Assembly (NCBI RefSeq): GCF_026427595.1
Contig: NZ_CP101527.1
Span: 1,125,001-1,189,000, forward strand
DNA from: Alkalimarinus sediminis
GTDB taxonomy: Bacteria > Pseudomonadota > Gammaproteobacteria > Pseudomonadales > Oleiphilaceae
DNA: 64,000 bases
Reading direction: 5' to 3'
Below the pieces are notes generated by a model. That model saw nothing but the letters and a program-made list of their open reading frames with translations, was not told the DNA's origin and ran no database searches. Below, in pieces: positions 16,440 through 34,072 of this stretch (the stretch's first letter is position 1; each line of letters starts with the position of its first letter). A program made the position numbers and the translations under genes.

Positions 16440-16455
16440 TGCAGAAGCTGTGCCA
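16440..16455 (-). promoter_or_regulatory. Sigma-54 promoter of the sypA operon
   Basis: On the minus strand the sequence reads TGGCACAGCTTCTGCA: a perfect -24 TGGCAC, exactly ten bases between the GG and GC pairs, and a -12 CTGCA. It lies about 57 bp before the sypA ATG and about 90 bp downstream of two paired enhancer-like elements. Confidence 0.85.
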
Positions 16456-16541
16456 GGAGGTAAATAGATAATAAATTCAGTTAGATAGCTTAATTTTTGC
16501 TGGTTTTGGGTGTGTGATAAAAAGGTAATAGGCGTTGAAAT

Positions 16542-16567
16542 TTGCGAAATGCAAATGCGAATTGCAA
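16542..16567. promoter_or_regulatory. Two abutting SypG/LuxO-type enhancer sites (sypA operon)
   Basis: TTGCGAAATGCAA (16542-16554) and ATGCGAATTGCAA (16555-16567) are two 13-bp near-palindromes of the form TTGCR-N3-TGCAA, end to end. The LuxO consensus I recall is TTGCA-N3-TGCAA. They stand 87-112 bp upstream of the sigma-54 promoter, a normal enhancer distance. Confidence 0.75.
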
Positions 16568-16653
16568 ACAGAGAGTGCTGATCGCTTATCGCTGATAAGA
16601 TAAGCAGATAGAGTGAGTTGATCGTCTGGGGTTACTCGCTAGGATGAATTGCC

Positions 16654-16739
16654 AGTGTTGTCAGTGTTGTCAGTGTCAGCCCCCAGGATGGACTGCTAGG
16701 CGATTTGTGTTGGTCTGTTTTGAGTTGGTCTGTTTTGAG
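16654..16739. repeat. Short tandem duplications in the sypA/sypR intergenic region
   Basis: The 9-bp unit AGTGTTGTC occurs twice in a row (16654-16671), followed by a partial third, and the 15-bp unit TTGGTCTGTTTTGAG twice in a row (16710-16739). The surrounding 16568-16892 stretch holds no credible gene. A small frame at 16632-16826 on the minus strand is mostly these repeats translated. Confidence 0.7.
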
Positions 16740-16892
16740 TTGTTGGTAATGCGCTGTTAGCGACTGATAACAGAGAGCCGCTTGAACGGCTGAAACTGTC
16801 AGCCGCACTACAAAGGTTAGACTCAAGTAGCCTTTGCAGTGCGCAATGTACCCGTTGACAGGAGTGGGTGTTGCTGGTGTCAGGTAGAGGTC

Positions 16893-17534
16893 TTACATGC
16901 CTCTACCGCAAACCATTACCCATACTGTTTTAAAGGCAACCGAGACTTCCATTCTCCACCATTGACTAAAGTTGCTCATTGAAAACGCATAGGCATGGTC
17001 ATAAAACAGTTTGTTTTTAACATCATCAATCGTCTGATCGTAACCTTGGTTAACTTGCGCAAGCCCTGTGATGCCCGGTGCTACATAAAACGTTCGCTCA
17101 AGGTAGTAGGGGATTTGGCTCATTAAACCTTTACATAACGCTGGACGCTCTGGTCTAGGCCCTACCACTGACATTTCCCCAATTAATACATTCCATAGTT
17201 GTGGTAGTTCATCTAATCGGGTCTTTCTTAGAAATAGTCCTACTTTAGTGATTCTGTTATCACCCTCTGATGCCCACACCGCTCCAGACCGATCTTCTGC
17301 ATCAGAGCGCATGGTTCTGAACTTAACCATCATAAATAACTCAACTCTGTCAGGCAGTGAACGCCCAATGCGTAGCTGTTTAAAAAATATCGGGCCAGGA
17401 GAGTCCAATTTGATTGCGATGGCAATTATAGGCCATAGCGGTAGGGTTAATATTAAGCCTACAACGCTGAGTATGATATCTACGGAGCGCTTAACGACTC
17501 TAATTGACATGGGAATATAGTTGTTTGAATTCAT
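16893..17534 (-). CDS. sypR: Undecaprenyl-phosphate sugar phosphotransferase, SypR-like
   Basis: A 213-residue bacterial sugar transferase (short PglC/WbaP-catalytic-domain type). One N-terminal hydrophobic segment (IILSVVGLILTLPLWPIIAIAI) is followed by the catalytic core with KLDSPGPIFFKQ, MVKFRTM, LRKTRLDELPQLWNVL and MSVVGPRPERP, and a C-terminal PGITGLAQV. It would start each repeat unit by loading the first sugar phosphate onto the lipid carrier at the inner membrane. The ATG at 17534 (GGAG eight bases before) shares its A with the TAA stop of sypQ, so the genes are coupled. It is the last gene of the 21805-16893 operon, as sypR is in Vibrio. Confidence 0.94.
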   Translation of the reverse strand: MNSNNYIPMSIRVVKRSVDIILSVVGLILTLPLWPIIAIAIKLDSPGPIFFKQLRIGRSLPDRVELFMMVKFRTMRSDAEDRSGAVWASEGDNRITKVGLFLRKTRLDELPQLWNVLIGEMSVVGPRPERPALCKGLMSQIPYYLERTFYVAPGITGLAQVNQGYDQTIDDVKNKLFYDHAYAFSMSNFSQWWRMEVSVAFKTVWVMVCGRGM

Positions 17535-18727
17535 TACTTCGTCTCCATCGTGATTTTGTGCCATCTTTGATTGTGCAACCCACACAGGTACTTTAATCCA
17601 CCAATGCCGTTAGCCCAGTGGCCAGCTACCAAGTAGTGAATGAGCTTGATAGGCTTTCTCCAGTTAACGGAAGGTGTGTGATGTACTAATAAAGCAAGGG
17701 CATACACTGCAATTTGTAATAGTGCTATCGGCGCTACCCACCAGTACTGGCTAGATAGGGCGAGGGTGCTTAGAAAGAATACCAACAGTAAAAAGGGCAT
17801 CCATGTGCGCAGGAACTTGCCCGAAACAAAGTTAAATGCAGTGGCACCATATTTAGGGCTTGTTAGCGTTAGAAGTCTCAGCGATTGTTGCATATTGCCA
17901 GCCGAGATTCGCTTTCTGCGTGTTTGATCCAGGGCGATATCTGACTTCTCTAGTTCCACCGCGACGATATCAGTATCGTAAACGCAGCGATATCCACTTT
18001 GTACGATCTGCATTGGCAGAATAAAATCGTCGTTAATGATATCTCTATCTAATGGCTTAAACAGCTGACGTCTAAAGGAGTATAGTGCGCCATGGACACC
18101 AATTGCTGAACCCATTTCGCTCTCCGTCTTTTTAATCTTAACCTGGTAGTCCCAATACGCTTTTTCACCCTCTGTGCCGGGTTCCAAGAAACAGTAGGTT
18201 GCTGCAACAACGCCCACTTTAGGGTCTGTCATTTTCTTAGCTATGATCTGAAATGCGTCTATCGAAATGAGTGCTGATGCATCGCTCAATACGATCAGGT
18301 CACTTTTGGAGGCGCTCACAGCTTCGTTAATAACCGCTACCTTGCCTCGGTTTACGCTGTTTCGGATAAATTTGATATTCATCTCTTGCCGAAACAGGTT
18401 CTGAATACTCTCTTCGAAGATAGCCGCTGACTTATCGGTAGAGCCATCATCGTAGAATCGTACTTTTAGACGGTCAGCAGGATAGTCTATACAAGCGATG
18501 TTGCTGATTTTTTCGGCTATGTAACGGGCTTCGTTAAAGCAGGGAATAATCAACGTAATAGTGGGTAGTTGCACGTCTTGTTTATCTGCTTCACTTTGGC
18601 CACCTGTTTCATCAATTGTTGAGCTGCGAGCAGATAGCAACCGCAAAACCAGCGGATAAAGTACGTGGTGGTAGCCAATCAAAAAACCGCTGATTAAAGC
18701 GATGAACCACATTATAGTTGAACTCAT
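17534..18727 (-). CDS. sypQ: Membrane glycosyltransferase family 2, SypQ-like
   Basis: A 397-residue processive-type GT2. An N-terminal membrane helix is followed by a GT-A domain with IIPCFNEA, YDDGSTDKS (UDP-sugar-binding DDG), LSDASA (DxS), the acceptor-site NDDF and a QxxRW-like RRKRISAGN, then two or three C-terminal membrane helices. It adds a sugar to the lipid-linked unit on the cytoplasmic face. The ATG at 18727 has GGGAG seven bases upstream; longer starts crowd the site. It follows sypP by 23 bp and overlaps sypR by one base. Confidence 0.92.
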   Translation of the reverse strand: MSSTIMWFIALISGFLIGYHHVLYPLVLRLLSARSSTIDETGGQSEADKQDVQLPTITLIIPCFNEARYIAEKISNIACIDYPADRLKVRFYDDGSTDKSAAIFEESIQNLFRQEMNIKFIRNSVNRGKVAVINEAVSASKSDLIVLSDASALISIDAFQIIAKKMTDPKVGVVAATYCFLEPGTEGEKAYWDYQVKIKKTESEMGSAIGVHGALYSFRRQLFKPLDRDIINDDFILPMQIVQSGYRCVYDTDIVAVELEKSDIALDQTRRKRISAGNMQQSLRLLTLTSPKYGATAFNFVSGKFLRTWMPFLLLVFFLSTLALSSQYWWVAPIALLQIAVYALALLVHHTPSVNWRKPIKLIHYLVAGHWANGIGGLKYLCGLHNQRWHKITMETK

Positions 18728-18750
18728 AACCATTCTCCCGTGCAACGAAA

Positions 18751-19851
18751 TTAGCTAACGGCAAACATAAGTTTCTGATAAGCATCGACCATGTGTGTGA
18801 CATCTCGGCGTTCGACGATGAAATCTCTTGGCGACGCCAGTGGAATTGTGCTTATAACCTTATTGATTGCATTTGAAAGCGCTTTTGAGTTTCTAGCATC
18901 AATAAGTGTGCCAGATTTTGGGCAAAGTGTTTCTTTACAACCACCTACGTCAGTAACGATAGCGCGAGTACCACAAGATTGGGCTTCGAGAGGTGAAAGA
19001 GGCATGCCCTCTTCGTAAGATGCGAGGCAAAATACATCGATCGCACGGTAAAACGCAGGCATATCTTCTACCTGTCCGAGAAAGTGAACTCTATCTTGCA
19101 GTGAGAGTTCTATTACTTGCTTTTTAAGTAACTGCTCCGTCGGCCCTGTTCCCGCAAGCGCGAGGTGAACCTCTTTAGGCAGTCTGAATAGTGCGTCTAG
19201 TAGCACCTCATGGCCTTTTACCGCGTGCATTCTGGCTGCACACCCCACGATGGTGACGTTTCTAGGTAGACCCAAATCTTGACGGGACTGCGCTTTATTA
19301 CCCGGCGAAAAGTGGCGAGTATCGATCCCGTTATGAACGATCTTAGGTGTAGCGGTCGGGATAGCCGACGTGATGTTTTGTGCGACAATATCTGCATCTG
19401 CTACCAGAATTGGCTTAACCCACTTGAAACAAAATTCGCTAATGGCTTTGTCACTTGCATTTTCAAGATGCCAGGCATCATGTTCTGTATGCACGATGGT
19501 TTTAATACCGGCCATCTTTGCCGCCAAGCCACCATAAAGTAGAGGACCTATGTGGTGGGTTTGAACGACACTGGCTTTAAGCTTTTTGAACAGGCGAGCC
19601 AGTTTAATTAATAGCAGTGGTTCGCGGCCTTCTTTTTTGCCCATAAAGTGAAGTGACGCATCGGTAGAGAGCAGTCGCGGCCAGCGTTTTGCCATCTCTT
19701 CTGCAGAACCTTCCAGGCTGACAATATGTACCTCATGGTCTCTAGGAGAAAACTTTTGTAGGTCGAGACACATGATTTCAAGACCGCCAGGTAACAAGTG
19801 CTGAACCACTTGAATTACGACTTTTTTCTGCTTTGTATTGCTATTTTTCAT
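18751..19851 (-). CDS. sypP: Glycosyltransferase family 4, SypP-like
   Basis: A 366-residue GT-B retaining glycosyltransferase. The acceptor-domain start is QVVQHLLPGGLEIMCLDL and a His-rich VQTHHIGPLLYGGLA follows. The donor domain has GCAARMHAVKGHEVLLDAL and the E-x7-E signature YEEGMPLSPLEAQSCG. AGGAG lies six bases before the ATG. The gene starts 10 bases after the Wzz-like gene ends. Sugar specificity cannot be read from sequence. Confidence 0.93.
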   Translation of the reverse strand: MKNSNTKQKKVVIQVVQHLLPGGLEIMCLDLQKFSPRDHEVHIVSLEGSAEEMAKRWPRLLSTDASLHFMGKKEGREPLLLIKLARLFKKLKASVVQTHHIGPLLYGGLAAKMAGIKTIVHTEHDAWHLENASDKAISEFCFKWVKPILVADADIVAQNITSAIPTATPKIVHNGIDTRHFSPGNKAQSRQDLGLPRNVTIVGCAARMHAVKGHEVLLDALFRLPKEVHLALAGTGPTEQLLKKQVIELSLQDRVHFLGQVEDMPAFYRAIDVFCLASYEEGMPLSPLEAQSCGTRAIVTDVGGCKETLCPKSGTLIDARNSKALSNAINKVISTIPLASPRDFIVERRDVTHMVDAYQKLMFAVS

Positions 19852-19860
19852 CTTACACTC

Positions 19861-21351
19861 CTATAGTTCTCTATCGACAGGTGCTTCAGCAATCGCATTT
19901 TGCGAACCTGTTTGATGAGCAAATTCAAAACGGGGTAGCCGTGTAATAACCGGAACACCCACGATATTTTCAACAATCTCTCGTTTAACGATCTTGGTAT
20001 TTGATATCTCTAGTAAAAAGGCTGCGCACAATCCAATTGCTAACCCTCCCAATATGCCAGCAATCAGATAGATGCTGAGTGGCGGAGTCATTGGCGTAAC
20101 TGGAACAAAGGGGCGATCAATAATCTTAATTCGCTCACTCTCTTCAAAGCGCCCTAGGGCTCCTGTGACTTTTGCCATCTCATAGCGTTTGAGAAGGTCG
20201 TTATACACCTGTTTATTGGTTGCAATATCTCGTTGTAGCTCTGTTAGTTGTTGCTCTGTTGCGCCAAACTGCTCGAGATTGGCTTTGAGCTGATCTACTC
20301 GAGCGGTGACATGTACAAGCTCCTGCTCTAACTGCTGGTAACGAGATTTTGCCTGTTCAATGGCTTCGAGTTGTGACACCAATAAAGGCCGCTGAATACC
20401 ACCCTCGTATTGATCAGTTAGATTGGTCGCCAGTTGCCAAAGCTTCTCTATATCAGTGTTAGCAAGAGAGTTAGTCTCTTTAAGAATGCTGTCTCGCTGA
20501 CTCTCAAGACGCTTGAGTTCTTTGGTTAGGGTAATAACCTTGCTGTGGCTATCGGTATATTTTGATTTCAATATAGCCAGTTGAGCTGTTCGGGCCATAA
20601 TGGTTTCTTCAACCGATGAGATCATCGGGTTGGTCTTCAGTAATTGGGTCGAGAGAGATTTAAGTGCCGCTTTGGCTCCCGCTAGGGATGCTAGTTTCTC
20701 CTCTCTGAGGGCTCCCAGTTCTCTGAGTGTTTTGACGTTATACTGGTATTGCTCTGGTAAACGATCAACATTCTCAGACTTAAACGCTGATAGTTTGTTT
20801 TCAGCGGCAATAAGCGCCAAATGGTGGCGCTCTAGTTGAGACTTCAAGAAATCTTCCGATGCGCCGATAGATGATTTTTCAGGGGCAAGCAGTTTATTCA
20901 AAAAGTGTTTTGATACCACTTCAAGGGTGCGCTTCATCTCACTGGGGTTAGAGTCCTTATAAGCAATCTTAACCATGTCTGAACCAATCAGTTGAACACT
21001 CAACTTACTAGAAAGACGAGCGATATCGGCTTCGGTTGTCGGCTTATCAGATATATCTCCGTTAATTTCATCGATTACTGATGAAAGTACGTGGCGGCTA
21101 TGAAGAAGTGCTTTAAGTGCCGTCATACGCTCTTTTAACTGAGTGGAAACCGAGAAATCTTCCAAAAACGGGTTCATTCGAGATGTCTCTTGAACCAGCA
21201 GTGTGGTGTGGTTCTGATAGGTTTTCTGAGACATAACACCCACTAACGCGGCTATAAAAGGCATTATGATTATGGGGAGCACGATGGTGTATCGTCTTCT
21301 CCAACCGGCTGCAATAATGTGGTGTAGATTCAGAAAGATATCATTTTGCAT
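19861..21351 (-). CDS. sypO: Wzz/GumC-type chain-length co-polymerase, SypO-like
   Basis: A 496-residue inner-membrane protein with the Wzz layout. A membrane helix lies at about 25-45 (IVLPIIIMPFIAALVGVM), then a large periplasmic part with a long coiled coil (about 165-400, rich in leucine, lysine and glutamate), and a second helix (LSIYLIAGILGGLAIGLCAAFLLEI) after a Pro-rich stretch. No kinase domain is fused; the tyrosine-kinase-like partner is the separate sypD product. It sets polymer length and links polymerase to exporter. The ATG at 21351 overlaps the end of the lipoprotein gene by 11 bases. Confidence 0.92.
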   Translation of the reverse strand: MQNDIFLNLHHIIAAGWRRRYTIVLPIIIMPFIAALVGVMSQKTYQNHTTLLVQETSRMNPFLEDFSVSTQLKERMTALKALLHSRHVLSSVIDEINGDISDKPTTEADIARLSSKLSVQLIGSDMVKIAYKDSNPSEMKRTLEVVSKHFLNKLLAPEKSSIGASEDFLKSQLERHHLALIAAENKLSAFKSENVDRLPEQYQYNVKTLRELGALREEKLASLAGAKAALKSLSTQLLKTNPMISSVEETIMARTAQLAILKSKYTDSHSKVITLTKELKRLESQRDSILKETNSLANTDIEKLWQLATNLTDQYEGGIQRPLLVSQLEAIEQAKSRYQQLEQELVHVTARVDQLKANLEQFGATEQQLTELQRDIATNKQVYNDLLKRYEMAKVTGALGRFEESERIKIIDRPFVPVTPMTPPLSIYLIAGILGGLAIGLCAAFLLEISNTKIVKREIVENIVGVPVITRLPRFEFAHQTGSQNAIAEAPVDREL

Positions 21352-21805
21352 GGGGCGCACTCGCTTCCATTACAACAACTAATTGCCCTGGAATTCCGTC
21401 TGGGTTAAACATGATTTCTGATTCAACACCGTCTCTATCCAACTGCTTTGCAACTTCTCGCGCGTTTGTAAGAGCAGTAGCCACTGAGCCGTAATCGTTA
21501 CTGGCCAGTGACAAGTTGATGGTTGCATATGAAAACTGTTTGTTTTGTTGCATCAGAAATGTATTCAGTACAAAGGTTTGTTTTGCTGTGATCGGAGCAG
21601 ACATATCAGTTAGCGTCAGTTTTACTGGCTCTTTCACAGTAGTAGGGCTCTGGTTACCTTCTTGTCCCATTTTGGCCAATGAGGCTATCTGGTTGTTGAT
21701 CTCTTCCGTATTGAGGGACTGATCAACGCCAACACCCGTTGCGCAACCTGATAAGAAGGTGACGATGCACCCCAAGACGATAAATTTGATAATAGTTGTC
21801 GCCAT
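21341..21805 (-). CDS. Small lipoprotein of unknown function, first gene of the sypO-P-Q-R operon
   Basis: A 154-residue protein with a clear lipoprotein signal (IVLGCIVTFLSGCATG; mature Cys at about 21). The rest is soluble, with a C-terminal half (FSYATINLSLASNDYGSVATALTNAREVAKQLDRDGV) that has the flavour of a small alpha/beta domain, but I do not recognise a family. It overlaps the wzz-like gene, and a sigma-54 promoter lies about 100 bp upstream, so it is expressed as part of the polysaccharide locus. The Vibrio syp cluster, from memory, has no gene at this place. A role beside the Wzz protein or the export channel is an inference from position. Confidence 0.85.
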   Translation of the reverse strand: MATTIIKFIVLGCIVTFLSGCATGVGVDQSLNTEEINNQIASLAKMGQEGNQSPTTVKEPVKLTLTDMSAPITAKQTFVLNTFLMQQNKQFSYATINLSLASNDYGSVATALTNAREVAKQLDRDGVESEIMFNPDGIPGQLVVVMEASAPHAK

Positions 21806-21906: not shown

Positions 21907-21922
21907 ATCAATAGTCGTGCCA
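21907..21922 (-). promoter_or_regulatory. Sigma-54 promoter of the lipoprotein-sypO-P-Q-R operon
   Basis: The minus strand reads TGGCACGACTATTGAT. The -24 TGGCACG is perfect; the -12 is TTGAT instead of TTGCW, one mismatch at the C of the GC pair, at the normal spacing. It is 102 bp before the gene start and about 65-95 bp below two enhancer-like sites. Confidence 0.7.
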
Positions 21923-21985: not shown

Positions 21986-22019
21986 TTGCAGTTTGCAATT
22001 ATCATATTGCAAACTGCAA
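21986..22019. promoter_or_regulatory. Two SypG/LuxO-type enhancer sites (sypO operon)
   Basis: TTGCAGTTTGCAA (21986-21998) and TTGCAAACTGCAA (22007-22019) both fit TTGCA-N3-TGCAA perfectly. Their centres are 21 bp apart, two helical turns, so two dimers would sit on one face of the DNA. Confidence 0.8.
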
Positions 22020-22048
22020 TTATTAGGATTAGATGGTTAAGGTTATGG

Positions 22049-23251
22049 TTAAGGTCTGAGAAGCGTAATGAGTTGATGAACTTGTTCTGATTTGGTTCTC
22101 CAACTCTCTTTAGATACGCTATGTCTTCTAAGTTGAGTGTTCGAGGATAAAAACTCAACGTCTAACCACGATTGCACTTCTGATACCATGGCTTTTTCAC
22201 TGATTAGTTTAGGGCTGTCACAGGCTGCCACCTCTATAGCGTTAACAAACTCTTCAGCCGTTGTAGCGGTGTTCACCAACTGTTTATAGGGCTCGAGCGC
22301 GGGAAACTCCGAAGAGACAATCGGCTTGCCTAACGCCAAATACTCCCTCAGTTTGAGCGGGTTACAGGCATCTATTTGTCCGCATTGTCTAAAGGGCAGC
22401 CAAGATACCTGCCAATGAGCCACATAGTTAGGTAACTCGTTATGAGGCTTAGGCCCTAAAAGGGAGATATTAGGTAACTCTTTAATCGCAGAAATATCGG
22501 TCTGAACTGAACCTATAAAAACAAATTCCCAGTCGGGCAGCTTATGGGCGACTGATTTGATTAGTTCGACGTCAATCCAGTCGGCAATAGAGCCATAAAA
22601 GCCAACAATTGGTCGACCCATTTTAAGATCTTCGGGTCTTGGCGCAGAGTATTTAGAGGCAGACGAGAACTCCTCATAGTCGACACCATGCTCCAACACC
22701 ACTGTTTTATCTGCAGGGAACTTTTTCGCAAGTTCCTGGCTCGCTACGATAACCAGATCTGCTTTTTCAACTAACTCTTGCTCCATTACGGCCACCGGAG
22801 CATGATCTACCCCTGCTAAGCTTGTAAAGTCATCACCACAATAATAGATCACCGCCTTTTCATTAAGTTTACCCACCACATCTACTGCTGATGGGAGTGA
22901 AGTCCAGAGAATGGGGCGTTTATCTTCTGAGGTAAATGACGACAGCAAGTTTTTAAGGAGCGCACCATTGAGTTTTCTTGCCACTGAGCTAGAAGGCCAG
23001 GGTATTACCTTGGGCTCGACTACAGGAAACTCAGATCGGCTAACACTGGTAGGTGCCGAGGGAGTCTTTTTTAGCATCGATTTAGCTTTAGCAAGCAGCC
23101 TTTTACCATCCCGTACCGTAAAGGTAGGTCGCCTCAGCCCAATGGAATTTACCCAAACCAGCTCATATTGTTGCTGTAGGTGTTTCATAAGATGCTGCGT
23201 GCTACTGGGGTGTGCGCCCCAGTCTTCTCCAAATACGATTAACTGTTGCAT
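22049..23251 (-). CDS. sypN: Glycosyltransferase (GT-B fold), SypN-like
   Basis: A 400-residue GT4-like enzyme. The N-terminus reads LIVFGEDWGAHPSSTQHLM. The acceptor side has VIYYCGDDFTSLAGV and KADLVIVASQELAKKF; the donor domain has GFYGSIADWIDVELI and, near the C-terminus, CNPLKLREYLALGKPIVSS in place of the usual E-x7-E loop. GGAG lies six bases before the ATG at 23251. It starts 14 bases after the acetyltransferase gene, forming a two-gene operon equivalent to sypM-sypN. Confidence 0.9.
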   Translation of the reverse strand: MQQLIVFGEDWGAHPSSTQHLMKHLQQQYELVWVNSIGLRRPTFTVRDGKRLLAKAKSMLKKTPSAPTSVSRSEFPVVEPKVIPWPSSSVARKLNGALLKNLLSSFTSEDKRPILWTSLPSAVDVVGKLNEKAVIYYCGDDFTSLAGVDHAPVAVMEQELVEKADLVIVASQELAKKFPADKTVVLEHGVDYEEFSSASKYSAPRPEDLKMGRPIVGFYGSIADWIDVELIKSVAHKLPDWEFVFIGSVQTDISAIKELPNISLLGPKPHNELPNYVAHWQVSWLPFRQCGQIDACNPLKLREYLALGKPIVSSEFPALEPYKQLVNTATTAEEFVNAIEVAACDSPKLISEKAMVSEVQSWLDVEFLSSNTQLRRHSVSKESWRTKSEQVHQLITLLRP

Positions 23252-23264
23252 GGTCTACTCCAAA

Positions 23265-23996
23265 CTAAAGTGTACGAATAACTTTTGCAGGGATACCCGC
23301 TGCCAGCACGTTTGCAGGTAGGCTCTTAGTTACCACACTACCGGCTGCTACAATGGTATTTTCGCCGATCACGACATTGGGCATTACCGAAACCCCTGAG
23401 GCTAACCAAACATTTTTTTGCAGTACAATAGCGCCTATCTGATCATCTGTGTCGGGCTTGCCATTAGCGCGATCAATAGGGTCTATGGGATGCCCTGGGT
23501 AGCCTGCAAGAAAGCAACGTCCTGCCATTCTAACGTTGTCTGAAATAATCACTTGAGTTCCGACCGCAATAGTTGTTTGCCAGCCAATATCAACGTTAGC
23601 GCCAATAGTGAGCGAAGGGGATGCAGTGGATGTTCTTCCTGTAAATGTTGAAAGACCTGATATTCTGGTGTTGTCACCCACTGATATCTCTAAATTACCC
23701 AGTATTTGTGGCATCCCCGAATAGAGATAGAGTCGCTTGGGTTTGGTGACGCACTTAGAGCTGAATAGGGGGGTCCAATAGAAGATACGAACAAAATTAG
23801 AGAGCAGTAATGCTACGGCTTGGTGTATCCGGTAGACCGAAGCATGTAAAAGTGGAATCTCAGGGCATTGCCAGTGCCGAACCCCATAAAAACTGTTTCT
23901 AAGCAACTTCGCAAATGGGTGTGAGCTGTTTTTAATCCACTCTCTTAAAGAGCGGGAGCGGGTTGCGCTGTCTGATTGTGTGGTCATAGTTTGCAT
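23265..23996 (-). CDS. sypM: Left-handed beta-helix O-acetyltransferase, SypM-like
   Basis: A 243-residue hexapeptide-repeat acyltransferase. The C-terminal half has the repeating [LIV]-G-x4 turns (SVGDNTRIS, TIGANVDIGW, VWLASGVSVMPNVVIGENTIVAAGSVVTKS) and the closing PANVLAAGIPAKVIR of the WcaF/NodL type. It would acetylate a sugar of the polymer using acetyl-CoA. The ATG at 23996 has AGGAG seven bases upstream; the frame reaches back to 24047 but that part overlaps the sigma-54 promoter. It is divergent from the asparagine-synthase-like operon. Confidence 0.9.
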   Translation of the reverse strand: MQTMTTQSDSATRSRSLREWIKNSSHPFAKLLRNSFYGVRHWQCPEIPLLHASVYRIHQAVALLLSNFVRIFYWTPLFSSKCVTKPKRLYLYSGMPQILGNLEISVGDNTRISGLSTFTGRTSTASPSLTIGANVDIGWQTTIAVGTQVIISDNVRMAGRCFLAGYPGHPIDPIDRANGKPDTDDQIGAIVLQKNVWLASGVSVMPNVVIGENTIVAAGSVVTKSLPANVLAAGIPAKVIRTL

Positions 23997-24040: not shown

Positions 24041-24056
24041 AGCACATATCGAACCA
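24041..24056 (-). promoter_or_regulatory. Sigma-54 promoter of the sypM-sypN operon
   Basis: The minus strand reads TGGTTCGATATGTGCT, with GG-N10-GC exact, -24 five of seven matches and -12 GTGCT. It is 45 bp before the sypM ATG and 66-90 bp from the shared enhancer sites. Weaker than the sypA promoter but correctly placed. Confidence 0.55.
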
Positions 24057-24121: not shown

Positions 24122-24146
24122 TTGCGAATTGAATTGCAAACTGCAA
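24122..24146. promoter_or_regulatory. SypG/LuxO-type enhancer sites shared by divergent operons
   Basis: TTGCAAACTGCAA (24134-24146) fits the motif perfectly. An abutting degenerate copy, TTGCGAATTGAA, occupies 24122-24133. They lie between the sypM-N operon (minus) and the asparagine-synthase-like/Wzx/Wzy operon (plus) and could serve both. Confidence 0.7.
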
Positions 24147-24244: not shown

Positions 24245-24260
24245 AGGCATAGTTACTGCA
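24245..24260 (+). promoter_or_regulatory. Probable sigma-54 promoter of the asparagine-synthase/Wzx/Wzy operon
   Basis: AGGCATAGTTACTGCA has GG-N10-GC at exact spacing and a -12 of CTGCA, but a weak -24. A perfect TGGCACG at 24236-24242 overlaps it with the wrong spacing (eight bases) for its own -12. The gene start is 35 bp downstream and the enhancer sites are about 100-120 bp upstream. Confidence 0.5.
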
Positions 24261-26010: not shown

Positions 26011-27188
26011 AGAAGGTAGGTTATGTATTAGCGGCATTTCCGGTGTTGTCTGAAACATTTGTCGGGACCGAAATTCGGGCAATGGAACAGCTGGGTCATA
26101 ACATTGTGCCTATTGCGTTTGAACGATCCTCTGCACCGGTGCAAAACAAAGATCAGCGATTCTTAAATGAGACCCATTATGTAACGGATGTGGGCATCTT
26201 AGATATTTTGGCAAATGTTCCGTTTAGGTTGGGTAAGTTGAGGGAGGCTGTATCGTTTGCACAATCACAGACCTCTGTTCGGTTCAGATCCCTTATGTGG
26301 CAAGCCCTTAAAGTGGCTGCAATCGCAAAAAAACAGGGGTGCGAGCATCTGCATGCCCATTTTGCCCTTAACTCCGCGGCCACAGCCATTGTTGCAGCTA
26401 AACTTTTGAATATCTCAGTGTCATTTGTTGGACACGGATTTGATGTATATGTAGAGCCTTATGACCTTGCATTAAAGCTTGATTATGCAGACTTTGTGAT
26501 TGCGGTCTGTGATCAGATGAAGCAAGACTTTGACCGCCTTAGCCAACCCGATAAGGCTAAATTGATGCACTGTGGCATCGATCTTAATGGGTTCCCTCTA
26601 ACGAATAGAAAAAAGTTTACCAATCGCTTGCTCTTTGTGGGGCGACTGGTTGAGAAGAAAGGCATTAGTTACCTGCTTCAGGCGCTCTCTCAAATGGAAC
26701 GATCAACCTTACCGCAAGTTGATTTGGTGGGTGATGGCCCGTTAAAGGCGCAAATTGAGCAAGAGATAAAACTCAAAGGGCTCGATGAGTATGTTCACTT
26801 TTTAGGCCTTAAAGATGCTGATTGGTTAAAAACCAATGCCCAGCAGTATAGTGGTTTAATCGCACCATTTTGTGAGGCTAGCAACGGCGATAAAGACACC
26901 GGGCCACTCGTTGTTAAAGAGGCCATGGCGCTTGGCCTTCCGGTAATTTCCACCGATTTTATGGGGGTTAAGGAGATTATCGATGATCATACCGGTTGGA
27001 AGGTGGAGCCGTCTAACGCTAGCGCTCTAGCCCAGGCCATTGAAGAGTGGCAAGCTCTTGATGCCCATGCTCGCGAAAGCATGGTCCTGGCTGCACGTCA
27101 GCGAGTTGAAACCTTCTTTACATCGTTTCAAACCACCAAAATACTATCAACTGCCATTAATCAGGTGCCTTATGAATTCAGTCGTTAG
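26007..27188 (+). CDS. Glycosyltransferase family 4 (WcaL/AmsK-like)
   Basis: A 393-residue GT-B enzyme of the colanic-acid type. The N-terminus is VGYVLAAFPVLSETFVGTEI, with LHAHFALNSAAT and FVGHGFDVYVEP in the acceptor domain. The donor domain has LLFVGRLVEKKGISYLLQAL and an E-x7-E region at GPLVVKEAMALGLPVISTD. Its ATG overlaps the asparagine-synthase-like stop (ATGA). It overlaps the flippase gene by 17 bases. By position it corresponds to one of sypH/I/J. Confidence 0.92.
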   Translation: MKKVGYVLAAFPVLSETFVGTEIRAMEQLGHNIVPIAFERSSAPVQNKDQRFLNETHYVTDVGILDILANVPFRLGKLREAVSFAQSQTSVRFRSLMWQALKVAAIAKKQGCEHLHAHFALNSAATAIVAAKLLNISVSFVGHGFDVYVEPYDLALKLDYADFVIAVCDQMKQDFDRLSQPDKAKLMHCGIDLNGFPLTNRKKFTNRLLFVGRLVEKKGISYLLQALSQMERSTLPQVDLVGDGPLKAQIEQEIKLKGLDEYVHFLGLKDADWLKTNAQQYSGLIAPFCEASNGDKDTGPLVVKEAMALGLPVISTDFMGVKEIIDDHTGWKVEPSNASALAQAIEEWQALDAHARESMVLAARQRVETFFTSFQTTKILSTAINQVPYEFSR

Positions 27189-28575
27189 GCAAGCACTGTT
27201 TTATGGCGTTGGACTGCTAGTGATGAAGGGGGTCTCCTTTATCATGCTACCGATTGTGACTCGTTATCTGCCTGTTGCGGAGTATGGCAGGCTCGATATC
27301 CTAGTAACGTTGATGAATGTTGGCAGCATTGTGGCAGGCTTTGGCATTGTAGAGGCCGTGTATCGATACCACGGTTATGCTAAGTCTGAGCAAGAACGAA
27401 GGGTGATTGTTTCGTCTGGCTTTACTGTGAGTGTGCTGCTATCAACCCTTCTATTGCTTATTTTGTTGCCATTCTTACCGGTTTTGTTAGCAGTGATGCC
27501 TGGAAACCTAGAAGCAAAAAGTATTGTCTTGGCGCTGGTTAATATCGCGGTTGGGGGAATTACTTCAGTACCCTTGGCTTGGTTAAGAATGCGAGATCTT
27601 GCCCAATGGTTTTTTGTTTTCACAACGGTAAAGGCAGTTATTCAGGGCGTGATGACCTTTGTGTTGTTAGATTTGGGGTGGGGAGTCGATGGTGTTCTTT
27701 GGAGTGGCCTTATCTCAAACCTGTTATTGATGGCTGTTTTAGTGGGCTTTCAGTGGCGACAAAGCGGCATGACCGTCGATATAGCGGTAGCGAAAAAGAT
27801 GATGGTTTATGGTTTACCGTTAGTGTTAGGCGGCGTTTGTCTCTTTGTTAGTGGCGGGTTAGAGCGTTGGGTGCTGGCGGGTTATACCGATACGGCTACG
27901 TTGGCGACCTATGGCGTTGCATCGATGTTTGCTTTGGTTGTTGCGTTTTTAGTAGAGCCTTTCACTCTCTGGTGGTTCCCAAAACGGTTTGAATATTTAG
28001 GCCGAAACGAAGGACGAGAGTTAAATGCATACTACTCGTCAATTGGGGTATCACTCAGCATGATGGCTGCCATGATCATCTCTTTGGTTAGCCCATTCAT
28101 TATTCGGTTTATATTACCTGAGAGCTACCATGGTGCGGCTGAAATCGTACCGGTACTGGCCATTGCAATGGCGATCAAACAGAGTGCACATTTAATGAAT
28201 GTGGGGTGCTATATTAGCGGTTCAACCACATTACCCACCAAAATCAATATGATTCTGGCTGCATTCTCACTGGTTGTTTACCCGCTTGCCATTCTTCTTC
28301 AGGGGGCAGAAGGGGTCATGGTGGGAGTGGTAATGGTTAATATTGTTAGATTTGCACTGTTCTATGTTTATAGCCAAAAAGCGCTATATCTTGATTACCC
28401 TTTAGCTTTCATAGCGAGACAGTTTATTTGTTTAGTCGCGATTGTCTTGGTTGGCACGCAATCTGCTCTACTCACACTATTAATTATTATATTTGCGTTT
28501 TGCGACAGCGCTGTTTTTATAAAGCGAAAAACAGCCAGTTTGCCAGACCGTGTTAATAGTCAGGTGGTGGGATAG
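27172..28575 (+). CDS. sypK: Wzx-type lipid-linked oligosaccharide flippase, SypK-like
   Basis: A 467-residue polytopic membrane protein of the polysaccharide biosynthesis (MOP) family with about 12-14 helices. The start is typical (QALFYGVGLLVMKGVSFIML followed by PIVTRYLPVAEYGRLD). It would move the finished lipid-linked unit to the periplasmic face. The true start is the ATG at 27172, inside the end of the upstream gene and with AGGTG before it; a longer frame back to 27040 only repeats sequence read in the other frame for the glycosyltransferase. The Wzy-like gene begins 2 bases after the stop. Confidence 0.92.
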   Translation: MNSVVRQALFYGVGLLVMKGVSFIMLPIVTRYLPVAEYGRLDILVTLMNVGSIVAGFGIVEAVYRYHGYAKSEQERRVIVSSGFTVSVLLSTLLLLILLPFLPVLLAVMPGNLEAKSIVLALVNIAVGGITSVPLAWLRMRDLAQWFFVFTTVKAVIQGVMTFVLLDLGWGVDGVLWSGLISNLLLMAVLVGFQWRQSGMTVDIAVAKKMMVYGLPLVLGGVCLFVSGGLERWVLAGYTDTATLATYGVASMFALVVAFLVEPFTLWWFPKRFEYLGRNEGRELNAYYSSIGVSLSMMAAMIISLVSPFIIRFILPESYHGAAEIVPVLAIAMAIKQSAHLMNVGCYISGSTTLPTKINMILAAFSLVVYPLAILLQGAEGVMVGVVMVNIVRFALFYVYSQKALYLDYPLAFIARQFICLVAIVLVGTQSALLTLLIIIFAFCDSAVFIKRKTASLPDRVNSQVVG

Positions 28576-28577
28576 CA

Positions 28578-29966
28578 ATGAATATTCAAGCTGTTAAGTA
28601 TCCTTCGGTGTTATTGATTGCCCTAATGGCGGCTTCAACAGCTGCACTGTTTTTTATACCTCACCCATTAGTCTTGTTTGGCTTGCCTGTGGCGGTGTTT
28701 GCAGGTTGGTTTGCATTGCGCTTCCCATTTTATATCTGCCTTGGCTTCATTGTTTTCTCGTTCTTTAGAATTCATGAGGCCTTCCCGGTGTTGTTACCTC
28801 TAAGAATACCTCAGCTATTGGCGTTGGGATCATTTGCGGTTATCGGTTGGCACCTGTTTGTGTCTAAAAGAATGAGTGTCTACTGGGCACCCAACTTATC
28901 GCTGTTTATAGGGTTTTTTTTACTGGTTACCGCTGGTGCGTTATTGGCAACCGATCGAGCAAGTGCGATCGGGGCGATTACCGGTAGCTATAGCAAAATT
29001 ATGATTATGGTGTTCGCGATTGCGTGGCTAACTCGCAACACTCAAGATTTCGAGAAGGCGGGTATGTTTTTCGCCATCGCCGGTGCGCTGATTGGCTGTG
29101 TCGCCATTTTTAATAAACTGAATGGTATCGGCCTGGTAGAAGGCACCCGCGTCACCATAGGTAGAAACATTGGGTCGATGATCGGTGATCCAAATGATTT
29201 AGCGTTAGTACTTACGTTTCCACTTAGTTTCGCCCTGAGTTTTGTAATCACTCCAGGGTATAAACGTTATCAAAAACTGTTTTTTGCGCTTATTTATCTT
29301 TGTATTGCATGGGCCATCATTTCAACGCAGAGCCGAGGTGGCCTATTGGGGATGGTCTCTGTAACCGGGATCGCTGCTTGGCGACTGTCCACTAATAAGC
29401 TAGCGGTTATCGCATTAGGCGTAGTTGCTTTAGCGGTATTAGTGGCGGTAGCCGGTATATCAGACCGATCGTCCGGAGGAGCTGCAGAGCAAGGGGTTGA
29501 TGAATCGGCCATGGGGCGAATATACGCCTGGGAAGCGGCTATAAAAATGGCGGTTAGCCGTCCAATCAGTGGCGTCGGAATCGATAATTTTTATGCCAAT
29601 TACTATTTTTACAGTAGTCACTGGGATGGCAAGAATCATGCTGTACATTCCACATGGTTTCAGGTTCTTGCTGAAACAGGTTTTTTAGGTTTTTGTGTTT
29701 TCGTATGGTTAGTGAAACGAACATTCGGTTCTATCACTGGCTCGCTCAATAAACTATCAGAAAAACGGGGTGCTTACCCACCGGCGATGTTGATGATGGC
29801 TCAGGCGTTATTTTCAGGTTTAGTCGGTTTTTGCATCTCGGGTACATTTTTAACGCAAGGGTTTATCTGGCCGTTTTACATATTATTTGCCCTTTCGGTC
29901 GCCCTTGAACGTTACTTAAACCAGAGTCACAACAGTGGCTCATCGACTATCCACGCAAAACAATAA
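28578..29966 (+). CDS. sypL: O-antigen ligase/polymerase (Wzy-like), SypL-like
   Basis: A 462-residue protein of 10-12 membrane helices with the Wzy_C/O-antigen-ligase pattern. A central loop contains STQSRGGLLGM, and a large periplasmic loop carries GRIYAWEAAIKMAVSRPISGVGIDNFYANY and HAVHSTWFQVLAETGFLG. It would join units into the polymer in the periplasm. It lies directly after the flippase and 67 bp before the next glycosyltransferase. Confidence 0.92.
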   Translation: MNIQAVKYPSVLLIALMAASTAALFFIPHPLVLFGLPVAVFAGWFALRFPFYICLGFIVFSFFRIHEAFPVLLPLRIPQLLALGSFAVIGWHLFVSKRMSVYWAPNLSLFIGFFLLVTAGALLATDRASAIGAITGSYSKIMIMVFAIAWLTRNTQDFEKAGMFFAIAGALIGCVAIFNKLNGIGLVEGTRVTIGRNIGSMIGDPNDLALVLTFPLSFALSFVITPGYKRYQKLFFALIYLCIAWAIISTQSRGGLLGMVSVTGIAAWRLSTNKLAVIALGVVALAVLVAVAGISDRSSGGAAEQGVDESAMGRIYAWEAAIKMAVSRPISGVGIDNFYANYYFYSSHWDGKNHAVHSTWFQVLAETGFLGFCVFVWLVKRTFGSITGSLNKLSEKRGAYPPAMLMMAQALFSGLVGFCISGTFLTQGFIWPFYILFALSVALERYLNQSHNSGSSTIHAKQ

Positions 29967-30033
29967 TCGGTTTTGTGGGTATTCCTATTGGGATTAGCAA
30001 ATTAGCAACATGTATTCTAAAAAGGTGTTCAGT

Positions 30034-30987
30034 ATGAAAAATAGTCCAGATGTCAGTATCGTAATACCTAACTTCAACTGTCTTAAGTTCTTACCCACCT
30101 GTATTGAGAGCATACGTTCTCAAAAAGGGGTAGATTACGAAATTATTGTCATTGATGATGGCTCTACTGACGGTTCCCTAGAGTGGTTGAATAGAGAGAG
30201 TGAGAACGATGAACGACTAAAGGTTTATGCCGAAAAAGGCCTAGGGGCAGGCTCAGCCCGAAACCTTGCAGTACAGCTGTGTAGTGCAGAGCTAGTCGCG
30301 TTTCTCGATGCAGATGATTTCTGGACAGAAGGTAAGCTGGCCAAGCAAGTGGCTTATCACCAACAGAACGAGTCGGTTGTTTTATCCTTTAGCGATTATG
30401 AGCATATTGAAGAAGAGAGTGGAGAAGGCATCATCGGCTGCTTTGAGTTTTGGCCGCGTTTTTCTGCCATTGCGGCCACAACAGAAAGTTGCGGCTACAA
30501 ACGTCTTACTAACCCCTGCGGGACGATCTTTGCTGAAAACGTTGTGGGTACATCGTCTGTGATGATCAGAAAATCAGCCTTCTTAGCCGTGTCAGGGTTT
30601 GACTCATCACTCAACTCAGCCAGTGACTGGGATCTATGGTTAAAGCTGGCTCAAATTGGTGACGTTGCATTTACTAAAGAGAAGGCAATGGGCTATTTAA
30701 TCCGTGCAGGATCGATGACGAGTAACAAAGGCAATCGAATCAAGGCGATGGAAACCATTGTTGAGAGACATGCAGTTGCTGCTACCGATGAATTTGGAGG
30801 CGCTTTTTCGTTTGCAAAAGCGCGCCTGGCTGATGGCTATCGAGAAATGTATATCGCCCAGCGTCAACCGCTTCGGTCTTTACAATATAGTATTAAGGCG
30901 CTCTGCCATGTACCTTCATCTACACACGTTAAATCTGTTTTGTCGGATGTAGTACAGCTCTTTAAAGGTAAGCCTGCCACTCGTTAG
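30034..30987 (+). CDS. Glycosyltransferase family 2
   Basis: A 317-residue soluble GT-A enzyme. SIVIPNFNCLKFLPTCIESI opens the fold, with IDDGSTDGS for the nucleotide sugar and LDADDFW for the metal-binding DxD. A WDLWLKLA segment marks the acceptor side. The ATG at 30034 has AAGGTG six bases upstream; the in-frame ATG at 30010 has none. It is the last gene of the plus-strand operon; after it comes a repeat array and no visible intrinsic terminator. Confidence 0.92.
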   Translation: MKNSPDVSIVIPNFNCLKFLPTCIESIRSQKGVDYEIIVIDDGSTDGSLEWLNRESENDERLKVYAEKGLGAGSARNLAVQLCSAELVAFLDADDFWTEGKLAKQVAYHQQNESVVLSFSDYEHIEEESGEGIIGCFEFWPRFSAIAATTESCGYKRLTNPCGTIFAENVVGTSSVMIRKSAFLAVSGFDSSLNSASDWDLWLKLAQIGDVAFTKEKAMGYLIRAGSMTSNKGNRIKAMETIVERHAVAATDEFGGAFSFAKARLADGYREMYIAQRQPLRSLQYSIKALCHVPSSTHVKSVLSDVVQLFKGKPATR

Positions 30988-31022
30988 TGCTTGTTCAGAA
31001 ATACGGTAACTGAACCCTCTTG

Positions 31023-31085: not shown

Positions 31086-31192
31086 GTGTTTTAGCGTAGT
31101 TTCGAATCATGGATTCCCGACCTCTCAGATGTCGGCGGATAATAAAGATGTTAACAAATCATATAGTTGTTAACTTTATCCACTGAGAGCCT

Positions 31193-31775
31193 GCAATGCG
31201 ACCCAGTAACCATGTGGGACATAGAATTATAGGGTGCGCTTGCGCACCGAATGGCACCAGTTAGAAGTTGTTCCAAGCCTTCAATGGTGCGCAAGCGCAC
31301 CCTATATTTTCAACTATTAAAATGTATCAATAGCGGCAGTCTCGATCGAAAGTTCAAATCACCTTAATGATCGCTTTTACTTATTTTGTCAGCGCTTTTC
31401 GTCCGTTATAAAGGAGGCCGTTGACCTAAACAGACGTTATTGAATGCTGCAATACGACCACAGTAACCATGTGGACATAGAATCATAGGCTACGCTTGCG
31501 CACCGAATGGCACCAGTTAGAAGATGTTCCGAGCTTTCAATGGTGCGCAAGCGCACCCTATATTTTCAACTACTAAAATGCATTAATAGCGGCAGTCTCG
31601 ATCGAAAGTTCAAATCACCTTAATGATCGCTTTTACTTATCTTGTCAGCTCTTTTCGTCCCTCATAAAGGGGACAGTTGACCTAAACAGACGTTATTGAA
31701 ATGTTGCAATACGACCCAGTAACCATGTGCGACATAGAATCATAGGGTGCGCAAGCGCACCCTATATCTTCAATG
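31193..31775 (+). repeat. Tandem array of a 257-bp repeat with internal palindromes
   Basis: Two nearly complete units (31193-31448, 256 bp; 31449-31705, 257 bp) and a partial third (31706 to about 31775) run head to tail, each starting GCAATRCGACC. Units 1 and 2 each hold the 79-bp palindrome (31228-31306, perfect 21-bp arms; 31484-31562, left arm with two changes). In unit 3 the palindrome has collapsed to 24 bp (31742-31765), the inner part having been lost. A related copy, inverted, is at about 1330-1555. No gene is evident. Confidence 0.9.
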
Positions 31776-31824
31776 GCTAGTTAGTGACTATTTTATAAAG
31801 GCGAGTTGATAAGTAATGAATAGT

Positions 31825-31862
31825 AAAAAGGGTATCAAAATACACATATTGATACCCTTTTT
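31825..31862 (-). terminator. Bidirectional intrinsic terminator
   Basis: A 14-bp perfect stem (31825-31838 and 31849-31862) of AAAAAGGGTATCAA type with a 10-base loop. The A-tract on the left and T-tract on the right give a U-run on both strands. It lies 51 bp beyond the stop of the REC-GGDEF gene on the minus strand. Confidence 0.85.
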
Positions 31863-31912
31863 TATTGGCGGGAGAGAGTTGAGCTAGAGCTGCAGGAGGT
31901 GCTAATCGGCGG

Positions 31913-32899
31913 CTATCCATGCCACTGATTTCGACCGTTGTTCTTACTAAAGTAGAGGTTTTTATCTGCGCTGTTGATTAAGCCAACATGTGCGCTCGAC
32001 TTATCGCTGTATTTGCTTAATGCCAGTGATGAAACCCCAAAGCTGGCGGTAACCGAGAGAGAGTGCTCTTCAAACTCAAACGGTTTGTCGGCAATTAAGT
32101 TACATAACTTATCGGCGACTGTCCTGGCTTGCTCGATAGAGGTGTCAGGCAGCACAATTAGGAACTCTTCTCCACCATATCGACAAACCCAATCTATCCC
32201 ATTACGCAGGTTTTGATTGAGCCTTTCTACAAAGTTCACGAGTACCGCATCACCGCAGGGGTGTCCATGGGTATCGTTGAGTGATTTGAAGTGGTCGATA
32301 TCCGTCATAATGACACTTAAATTACCATTCGTTCGCTCTACTCGTTTAACCTCATTCGGTAGCCTATCTTTGAGATATGCTCGATTATAGGCTCCGGTCA
32401 AGGTGTCTTTTTGCGCCTGATCGAAGTAGTAGCTCTTCATCTTTTCAAGTTGAACATGCTTATCGAGTATTCTCATCCCGCTTAGCACTCTGGCTCTTAA
32501 CTCATCCTTACGGAACGGCTTGGTAATATAGTCGTCTGCACCACCCGATAAACACTGTATGAGATCGTCCGGGCTCGATTTTGAAGTAATCATGATTACA
32601 TAGCGGGTATTAACCTCTGACTCTCGTAGCTTCTTAACGATTGAAAGCCCGTCTTGCCCTGGCATGACCCAGTCGCACAGAATCATTCGGTAGTCATAGG
32701 CCTCTAGGTGCTGGAATGCTTCAGAGTCATTACTGGCGGTATCAACCACCAGACCGGTAGACTCAAGGAGTAGCTTAGTTAGCTCCAGGTGAGTGAGGTC
32801 GTCATCAATTAAGAGTATTTTATGCTTCTCAATTCTATTCTCTAGCATTCTACTATCTAACACCGAAGGGGCCCTGTCTAAAGAGTTACTGAATGGCAT
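31913..32899 (-). CDS. Response regulator diguanylate cyclase (REC-GGDEF)
   Basis: A 328-residue protein: receiver domain (about 25-145, Asp76 in LCDWVMPG) and GGDEF domain (about 165-325, active-site RYGGEEF at 240-246, intact). It should make c-di-GMP when phosphorylated. At the inhibitory-site position, the RxxD that usually stands before the active site reads NGID, with the Arg one place early, so product inhibition may be lost. AGGAG lies nine bases before the ATG. It overlaps the upstream glycosyltransferase by 14 bases and so shares its sigma-54 promoter; a bidirectional terminator follows. This places a c-di-GMP source inside the polysaccharide regulon. Confidence 0.94.
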   Translation of the reverse strand: MPFSNSLDRAPSVLDSRMLENRIEKHKILLIDDDLTHLELTKLLLESTGLVVDTASNDSEAFQHLEAYDYRMILCDWVMPGQDGLSIVKKLRESEVNTRYVIMITSKSSPDDLIQCLSGGADDYITKPFRKDELRARVLSGMRILDKHVQLEKMKSYYFDQAQKDTLTGAYNRAYLKDRLPNEVKRVERTNGNLSVIMTDIDHFKSLNDTHGHPCGDAVLVNFVERLNQNLRNGIDWVCRYGGEEFLIVLPDTSIEQARTVADKLCNLIADKPFEFEEHSLSVTASFGVSSLALSKYSDKSSAHVGLINSADKNLYFSKNNGRNQWHG

Positions 32900-33938
32900 A
32901 AGTGTTTTCTCCTAAAAGGTTGGTTGACAGCGCAGTATGGTAAATAGCCAATATCTTGGGGATTACTGCGTCCTCGGAATAGTGTGTGGTAATAGTGTCC
33001 ACCGCTTTATCTCTCACAAGATTTTGAGTGGTGCTATTGATCTCGAGCCATTGTTGCAGCATGCTTTGAAGCGCTGATAAGGTTCCATCGAACAGAAAAC
33101 CATTGCGGTTATGTTGAATTAATTTTGGTAGATCGCCGACTTTTGTGGCGATAACCGGCACTCGGTTAGCCATGGCTTCTAGAGCTGCTAATGGCAGTCC
33201 TTCGTTCAGTGAGGGCATTACCAGTAGATCAATCTCGTGCCATCGGCGCTGCATATCATCAACGGTACCGTGAAAATAAAGATTCGGTGGTGCGTTTTTT
33301 TCTAACGCTGAACGTAGAACACCATCACCGTAAACATGAAACTCATCACCCAGAAACAGCTCTGCCAGTTGACAGAAAAGGGCTGGATTTTTAACTTCAT
33401 CTAAACGACCTACAAACGCAATTTGTCGCCCTTTTGGTGCTGCTGTAACCTGCTGCGAGGGAATAAAGTTGGGTAAAGTGGCTGCACACTGGCCTTTTAG
33501 CCTGTCGGCGATCTCGTCACTAACTGCAATATTGGTTGAGTATTTTGAACTCCAAATATCCAAGGCTGTATAAAGCCTTAGCTTACCCGACCCCATATCA
33601 CCGTTATGAAAGGTAGAAATACAGGGCGTTTTGGTTCTTGCAGCGGCAAAGCGCCCAATAATATTCGCCTTGTAGCCATGGGTATGAATTAGGTCAGGCT
33701 GCTGATCTTTAATCGCATTGATAAGGTCCCATGGGCGACCATCAAGGGCTATAACCGGCACCTTAAATGAACTCAAGGTTCGTATAATGGGGTGCTTGGT
33801 GTGATAGTTAAGCAAAACAATGCTCACATGGTGGTTACGCTTTGCTAAGCCAGTGGCTAAATTTATGACGTGGGTCTCTATGCCGCCAACCGACCTGCTG
33901 TCGATCACCATAAACAGTTTTAAAGCTTTATTGGCCAT
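32886..33938 (-). CDS. Glycosyltransferase family 4 (SypH-like by position)
   Basis: A 350-residue GT-B enzyme. The start has SRSVGGIETHVINLATGLA, then LIHTHGYKANIIGR. The donor domain has IAFVGRLDEVKNPALFCQLA and the E-x7-E segment SLNEGLPLAALEAMANRVPV. AGGAGA precedes the ATG. It is the first gene of a two-gene operon with the REC-GGDEF gene and carries its own sigma-54 promoter and enhancer sites, which ties this outlying piece to the main polysaccharide locus on the far side of the repeat array. Confidence 0.93.
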   Translation of the reverse strand: MANKALKLFMVIDSRSVGGIETHVINLATGLAKRNHHVSIVLLNYHTKHPIIRTLSSFKVPVIALDGRPWDLINAIKDQQPDLIHTHGYKANIIGRFAAARTKTPCISTFHNGDMGSGKLRLYTALDIWSSKYSTNIAVSDEIADRLKGQCAATLPNFIPSQQVTAAPKGRQIAFVGRLDEVKNPALFCQLAELFLGDEFHVYGDGVLRSALEKNAPPNLYFHGTVDDMQRRWHEIDLLVMPSLNEGLPLAALEAMANRVPVIATKVGDLPKLIQHNRNGFLFDGTLSALQSMLQQWLEINSTTQNLVRDKAVDTITTHYSEDAVIPKILAIYHTALSTNLLGENTYAIQ

Positions 33939-33969
33939 ATTAATCTCTCCTAATGTATAAAGGAGCTAG

Positions 33970-33985
33970 AGCAATTATCGAGCCT
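33970..33985 (-). promoter_or_regulatory. Sigma-54 promoter of the glycosyltransferase/GGDEF operon
   Basis: The minus strand reads AGGCTCGATAATTGCT: exact GG-N10-GC spacing, a perfect -12 TTGCT and a -24 with five of seven matches. It is 32 bp before the glycosyltransferase ATG. Confidence 0.75.
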
Positions 33986-34047
33986 GTTTTTAAGTTGTTG
34001 ATATATATGGGCTGGAGGAGGTTTTTTGTGTTTAGATAAGTTTTCTT

Positions 34048-34072
34048 TTGCCAAATGCTTTGCAGATTGCAA
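34048..34072. promoter_or_regulatory. SypG/LuxO-type enhancer sites (glycosyltransferase/GGDEF operon)
   Basis: TTGCAGATTGCAA (34060-34072) matches TTGCA-N3-TGCAA perfectly. A degenerate TTGCCAAATGCTT (34048-34060) abuts it. They are 63-87 bp upstream of the sigma-54 promoter, as at the other operons. Confidence 0.72.

Follow-up and report, generated by a model that had tools for sequence, protein, structure and literature searches.

The DNA analyzed here is a 64,000-nt window of contig NZ_CP101527.1 from Alkalimarinus sediminis (positions are those of the window unless the genome is named). It carries a syp-like polysaccharide locus, in which sypABCD, a sypE-like gene, a kinase gene, and sypG form one block with glycosyltransferase (GT), Wzz, and sugar transferase genes; a homologous block is present in two Vibrio loci (L126 and L128). 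Such syp/scv loci occur in 28 genera, and scv is controlled by ScvE (PMC8941931). Five −24/−12 promoters of the sigma-54 type, scored against a simple 12-position consensus, face five operons of the A. sediminis locus, and a palindrome of the TTGCA-N3-TGCAA type lies 63 to 98 bp upstream of each. The promoters, the palindromic regions, and the four operons lying beyond the sypA-to-sypG operon are as follows.

16440..16455, minus strand: sigma-54 promoter of the sypA-to-sypG operon (TGGCACAGCTTCTGCA, score 11/12).
21907..21922, minus strand: sigma-54 promoter of the sugar transferase operon (TGGCACGACTATTGAT, GA replacing GC at −12, score 11/12).
24041..24056, minus strand: weak sigma-54 promoter of the acetyltransferase-GT operon (TGGTTCGATATGTGCT, score 9/12; counterpart in two relatives).
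24245..24260, plus strand: weak sigma-54 promoter of the asnB operon (AGGCATAGTTACTGCA, score 9/12; counterpart in two relatives).
33970..33985, minus strand: sigma-54 promoter of the GT and REC-GGDEF operon (AGGCTCGATAATTGCT, score 10/12).
16542..16567, minus strand: two adjoining 13-bp sites with a period of 13 (TTGCAATTCGCAT and TTGCATTTCGCAA, with one and two mismatches).
21986..22019, unstranded: two exact palindromes with a period of 21, together a larger inverted repeat (pattern scan).
24122..24146, unstranded: enhancer region common to two divergent promoters (exact site 24134-24146 and degraded copy 24122-24134).
34048..34072, unstranded: exact site 34060-34072 and degraded copy 34048-34060 (pattern scan).
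16893..21805, minus strand: predicted target operon for a sugar transferase, two GTs, a Wzz-like protein, and a small lipoprotein-like protein (Pfam, gene comparison).
22049..23996, minus strand: predicted target operon for a GT and an acetyltransferase (open reading frames [ORFs]; start probably 23996).
24295..30987, plus strand: predicted target operon for an asparagine-synthetase-like protein, a GT, a flippase-like protein, a polymerase-like protein, and a GT (names from sequence reading).
31913..33938, minus strand: predicted target operon for a glycosyltransferase and a REC-GGDEF diguanylate cyclase (ORFs, domain search).

The initial annotation had listed five GG-N10-GC promoters, at 16440, 21907 (one mismatch), 24041, 24245, and 33970, and all of them are present at these places. 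The palindrome is exact at 21986, 22007, 24134, and 34060 and occurs with one mismatch at 16542 and with two at 16555. The longest ORF at 23265-24047 begins within its own sigma-54 promoter (24041); the acetyltransferase probably starts at the ATG at 23996, behind AGGAG and downstream of its promoter. Further one-mismatch copies lie at 16834-16846, between the sypA- and sypR-like genes and 379 bp upstream of the sypA promoter, and at 31440, within a 926-bp gap between convergent genes (30987-31913) that holds no stop-to-stop frame longer than 66 amino acids (aa); neither copy has a promoter in range.

Both the abundance of the motif and its coupling to promoters exceed chance. The pattern TTGCRNNNTGCAA has 12 strand-wise matches at seven places in the window versus 0.42 expected, and none of 100 shuffles reached 12. 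With coupling defined as a site with at most one mismatch 30 to 186 bp upstream of a promoter, five promoters qualified in the window and none elsewhere in the genome, where eleven stretches of 20 kb (220 kb) were scanned; 100 first-order shuffles of the window gave a mean of 0.4 and a maximum of 3. Promoters with an exact site in range were absent from all 100 shuffles.

Scanning the whole genome (4,226,946 bases) located the exact 13-mer at 13 places and the reversed control at one. At five of the 13, namely the four syp sites and one at genome position 3608195, open frames measure at most 43 to 78 aa, and only these five have a sigma-54-like site scoring at least 9 in range; the other eight fall within open frames of 150 to 644 aa, some of them cut by the examined stretch. 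Enrichment exclusively at the syp operons had been proposed as a check; exact copies also occur beyond these operons, eight in long frames and one at a sixth promoter. One-mismatch sites number 162 genome-wide versus 98 for the reversed control, a modest excess. The relaxed pattern WYGCANNNYGCAA occurs at 54 places, and all 46 outside the window were inspected. Besides 3608195, six of them (443807, 1239262, 2283371, 2421747, 2757491, and 2925631) have a sigma-54-like site within the distances allowed; the six were not counted as targets because they lie within open frames of at least 112 aa, all cut by the examined stretch. At 797111 a sigma-54-like site goes only with a different, two-mismatch site, and inspection of the one-mismatch sites 1356973 and 1634785 and of the pair in locus L077 disclosed nothing.

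The exact site at 3608195 (TTGCAAAATGCAA) lies 64 bp upstream of the sigma-54-like TGGCCTCAATGTTGCT (score 9). Behind this LuxO-type site is an operon of the following content.

Genome 3605752-3608080 (locus L239, 753-3081): a small ORF (about 60 aa, hydrophobic at its start), followed by a 708-aa protein with DUF4842, DUF6923, and GEVED domains.

DUF4842 proteins, which we take to be "LruC," likewise follow a LuxO-type site in L067, where it has one mismatch, and in Colwellia (L152), where it is exact. With the same promoter layout, this operon for a secreted-looking protein at 3.605 to 3.608 Mb is likely a further regulon member outside the window. Four other genomes of the genus yielded no regulator at E ≤ 1e-110 and no sixth-target protein at E ≤ 1e-20.

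The regulator gene that we connect with these sites belongs to the sypA-to-sypG operon, whose genes are as follows.

4665..6071, minus strand: LuxO/SypG-like response regulator, the putative activator (Pfam: REC, sigma-54 AAA+, Fis-type helix-turn-helix [HTH]; LuxO 5ep0, E 2.6e-157).
6144..7730, minus strand: SypE-like protein with HATPase_c_2, REC, and SpoIIE phosphatase domains (Pfam).
7693..11286, minus strand: hybrid histidine kinase with PAS, REC, and Hpt domains, a likely phosphate donor (Pfam).
11293..12249, minus strand: PhnD-type periplasmic binding protein, a possible signal input (Pfam).
12253..16392, minus strand: sypD-, sypC-, sypB-, and sypA-like genes (kinase-like, SLBB export, OmpA, STAS; Pfam; order kept in relatives).

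The protein at 4665-6071 had been named the single sigma-54 activator of the window, and a search turned up no other; an RpoN gene is present in the genome. Its best solved relative is LuxO (5ep0), and alignment to this structure indicates that it keeps GAFTGA at 217, the phosphorylatable aspartate D53, and the linker glycine G141. An alanine scan of Vibrio cholerae LuxO reports 11 HTH residues needed for activity (PMC11407668), and 10 of these 11 are identical in the window regulator, L429 being replaced by K. Identity reaches 56 to 59% with vibrio and photobacterium LuxO and 51% with the SypGs of L126 and L128, values that are no proof of LuxO kinship, given the length of the SypG branch. 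Neither LuxO nor SypG emerges from the tree as the nearer of the two (approximately unbiased test, p 0.446 for grouping with LuxO and 0.135 for grouping with SypG). The HTH motif reads GNIPK/R in the window regulator and in LuxO, and GNVLN in the two Vibrio SypGs.

The LuxO upstream activating sequence (UAS) is published as TTGCAWWWTGCAA (PMC10162802), with which the window motif agrees, as the initial annotation had stated. TTGCA-N3-TGCAA stands near a sigma-54 promoter here too, with the W3 spacer not always kept.

Site and promoter recur together in relatives. A survey of 151 family genomes (cutoff E ≤ 1e-110) found the regulator in 20, A. sediminis included, and the sypA-to-sypG block in five relatives (G037, G025, G019, G010, and G044). 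All five sypA promoters, chosen by promoter score except that of G044, which was chosen by eye, have a site with at most two mismatches 63 to 77 bp upstream of −24, the sites of G037, G025, and G019 being near copies that count as one; several have a second contiguous or nearly contiguous copy. For comparison, 7.6% of random 170-bp stretches of the A. sediminis genome (4000 draws) contain a site with at most two mismatches and 0.6% one with at most one. A one-mismatch site is also found at sypA of G237, which lies outside the family. G037 and G019 retain the divergent acT/asnB region together with its single common one-mismatch site (two of three for each promoter, G010 being the third), and the GT4d upstream regions of G010, G044, G037, and G019 all carry a site with at most two mismatches (4/4), with a promoter score of only 8 in G044 (chosen by eye), G037, and G019. 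The acT, asnB, and GT4d counts in G037, G019, and G010 lean upward because these counterparts were first noticed through a nearby site.

The coupling extends to the wider clade. Across 70 LuxO/SypG-type loci (1.28 Mb), the motif with at most one mismatch, 50 to 130 bp upstream of a sigma-54-like site scoring at least 10, gave 75 pairs in 37 loci, versus 0 to 4 pairs for the control motifs (four permuted, two with another spacer, and the mirror). The comparison set, 39 loci with other activators drawn from the lower ranks of the same scan (0.61 Mb), gave a single pair, with 0 to 2 for permuted motifs; its taxonomy and base composition are not those of the clade loci, a difference for which the permuted motifs compensate only in part. 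Left out of the clade count were L130 and L134 (same contigs as L111 and L112) and L153, L154, and L158 (partial matches). Most motif-promoter distances below 400 bp in the clade loci (77 of 89) fall within 50 to 149 bp. In a matrix built from 66 distinct clade sites, C4 and G10 are invariant and the spacer is mostly A/T. Three Vibrio/Photobacterium luxO loci served as a positive control: the promoters picked there by the scan are those of Rfam Qrr RNAs. Elsewhere, in LuxO/SypG-type loci of other families and of alphaproteobacteria, the coupled promoters precede STAS, polysaccharide export, and DUF4842 genes as well as genes for response regulators resembling the window REC-GGDEF protein; the motif and its coupling are those of the window, whereas the surrounding gene content varies.

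We consider it very probable, from these sequence comparisons, that the LuxO/SypG-like regulator switches on the whole polysaccharide locus via TTGCA-N3-TGCAA enhancers and sigma-54 promoters. Regulator, site, and targets had been thought definable from the window sequence; the comparative coupling of site, promoter, and regulator supports this, whereas the target list was probably incomplete by at least one member outside the window. Sequence thus assigns six likely target operons to one regulator and its site. The analysis demonstrates the sequence elements, how they are conserved, and how they couple to this regulator family, and we infer binding, phosphorylation, RpoN dependence, the signal, and the biofilm function. 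In such a mechanism, a phosphorelay from the hybrid kinase (7693-11286), to which the PhnD-type protein may convey a signal, would phosphorylate the regulator, which would bind the enhancers 60 to 120 bp upstream of the five promoters and drive RpoN-polymerase to promoter opening through ATP hydrolysis. All polysaccharide operons would come on at once, plus the REC-GGDEF cyclase operon, and activation of the regulator's own operon would create positive feedback, i.e., a self-amplifying switch.

Several observations weigh against this reading, and some of them lend substance to rival explanations. The sites had been described as paired at four regions; 16542/16555 and 21986/22007 are real pairs, and pairing is certain for only these two promoter regions because the second copies at 24122-24134 and 34048-34060 are each degraded, with three mismatches. 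G010 lacks a site with at most two mismatches at its acT/asnB promoter, as do three of the four lp154-type positions (G037, G010, and G237; Ferrimonas alone has a site, an exact one). The promoters at 24041 and 24245 match only 9 of 12 consensus positions each and were picked through the nearby palindrome, and GG-N10-GC alone is common, so that some of the five promoters could be real and others chance. We regard this as unlikely, since the divergent layout with a common one-mismatch site recurs in two relatives (L243 and L244), though not in G010.

The thresholds used leave 33 of the 70 clade loci without a pair, among them L050 to L052 of the nearest relatives, in which the sypA site has two mismatches. 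A further point concerns the identity of the DNA-binding protein. Ten other sigma-54 activator-like proteins are encoded in the genome (34 to 44% match to the regulator), and the palindromes might be bound by another activator or an unrelated repressor, with the SypG-like protein using a different site, as in Vibrio. There, L126 and L128 (regulators 93% identical) have ten sigma-54-like sites scoring at least 10 on both strands; eight of them (four matching places per locus) have a TTCTCA/TTCCCA-N3-TGA site in either orientation at most 130 bp upstream, the remaining two, both in L126, have none, and a LuxO-type site with at most two mismatches is found at none of the ten. These Vibrio sites resemble the published V. 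fischeri motif TTCTCANNNTGMDWN. We nevertheless judge such a switch of binder improbable: the motif is coupled to promoters near LuxO/SypG-type genes and hardly near others, the regulator HTH residues match LuxO, and the Vibrio SypG site TTCTCANNNTGM is absent from the window, though merely 1.4 copies are expected there by chance. That the palindrome is a general feature of the genome sequence is very improbable, given the single reversed control match, the sigma-54-like promoter beside every exact site outside long frames, and the recurrence of comparable sites at the corresponding promoters of other genera, despite the eight of 13 exact sites in long frames and a chance-level count at up to two mismatches (51 vs 47 expected), because of which only strong sites count.

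The regulator-driven arrangement resembles the LuxO-qrr system of Vibrionaceae in its half-sites, 3-bp spacer, sigma-54 promoter 60 to 120 bp away, linker glycine, and 10 of 11 HTH residues. It differs in that the targets are polysaccharide operons rather than a small RNA and in that the regulator gene sits in the operon it would control; the Qrr family (RF00378) has no match in the A. sediminis genome, but none in any control genome either. V. fischeri syp/SypG and V. parahaemolyticus scv/ScvE likewise keep sypA-D, the E-like gene, the kinase gene, and G together, with a sigma-54 response regulator inside the locus and several sigma-54 promoters with upstream sites. Unlike these, the window has an inserted PhnD gene, a divergent asnB operon, and a GT/REC-GGDEF operon, and its enhancer is TTGCA-N3-TGCAA instead of the TTCTCA/TTCCCA-N3-TGA of the two Vibrio loci or the motif published for V. 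fischeri. SypG is able to use LuxO sites at qrr1. Judged by its sequence, the window holds a syp locus that LuxO-type sites would control, which makes it a variant of a known system; calling the regulator SypG conceals that its likely site is of the LuxO type, unlike the TTCTCA type of Vibrio syp loci. A literature search (titles and abstract openings) returned no syp locus with a LuxO-type site at its own promoters and no such clade-wide polysaccharide-promoter mark.

A LuxO-type activator with TTGCA-N3-TGCAA may be an old polysaccharide/biofilm module of Pseudomonadota, a proposal on which we are evenly divided. Vibrios would have reused it for quorum sensing (LuxO-Qrr), with the syp activator and promoters of these same cells moving to TTCTCA and the paralogues thereby kept apart; the window would represent the unsplit state, in which a single regulator at the syp position goes with a LuxO-type site. 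What insulates syp promoters from LuxO was left as an open question by the authors of the 2023 eLife study (PMC10162802). Should the LuxO-type site be the older of the two at syp, insulation in Vibrio would have arisen by a later change in both site and regulator, and the differing HTH motifs (GNIPK/R versus GNVLN) would be directly testable. The motif could help to find polysaccharide regulons in genomes without a quorum-sensing LuxO, and the broader clade pattern behind the window finding deserves a proper survey.

Horizontal gain of the locus was considered and rejected, as its GC content (0.446) hardly differs from that of the flanks (0.442 and 0.434). A small signal recognition particle RNA (36561-36657, plus strand) and a tRNA (35375-35459, minus strand) adjoin the locus. 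Among the clade loci, divergent LuxO-type promoters in Aurantiacibacter marinus (L144, 8004-9980) precede one gene for polysaccharide export and one for an H-NOX protein, the latter recalling the nitric oxide input to syp in V. fischeri.

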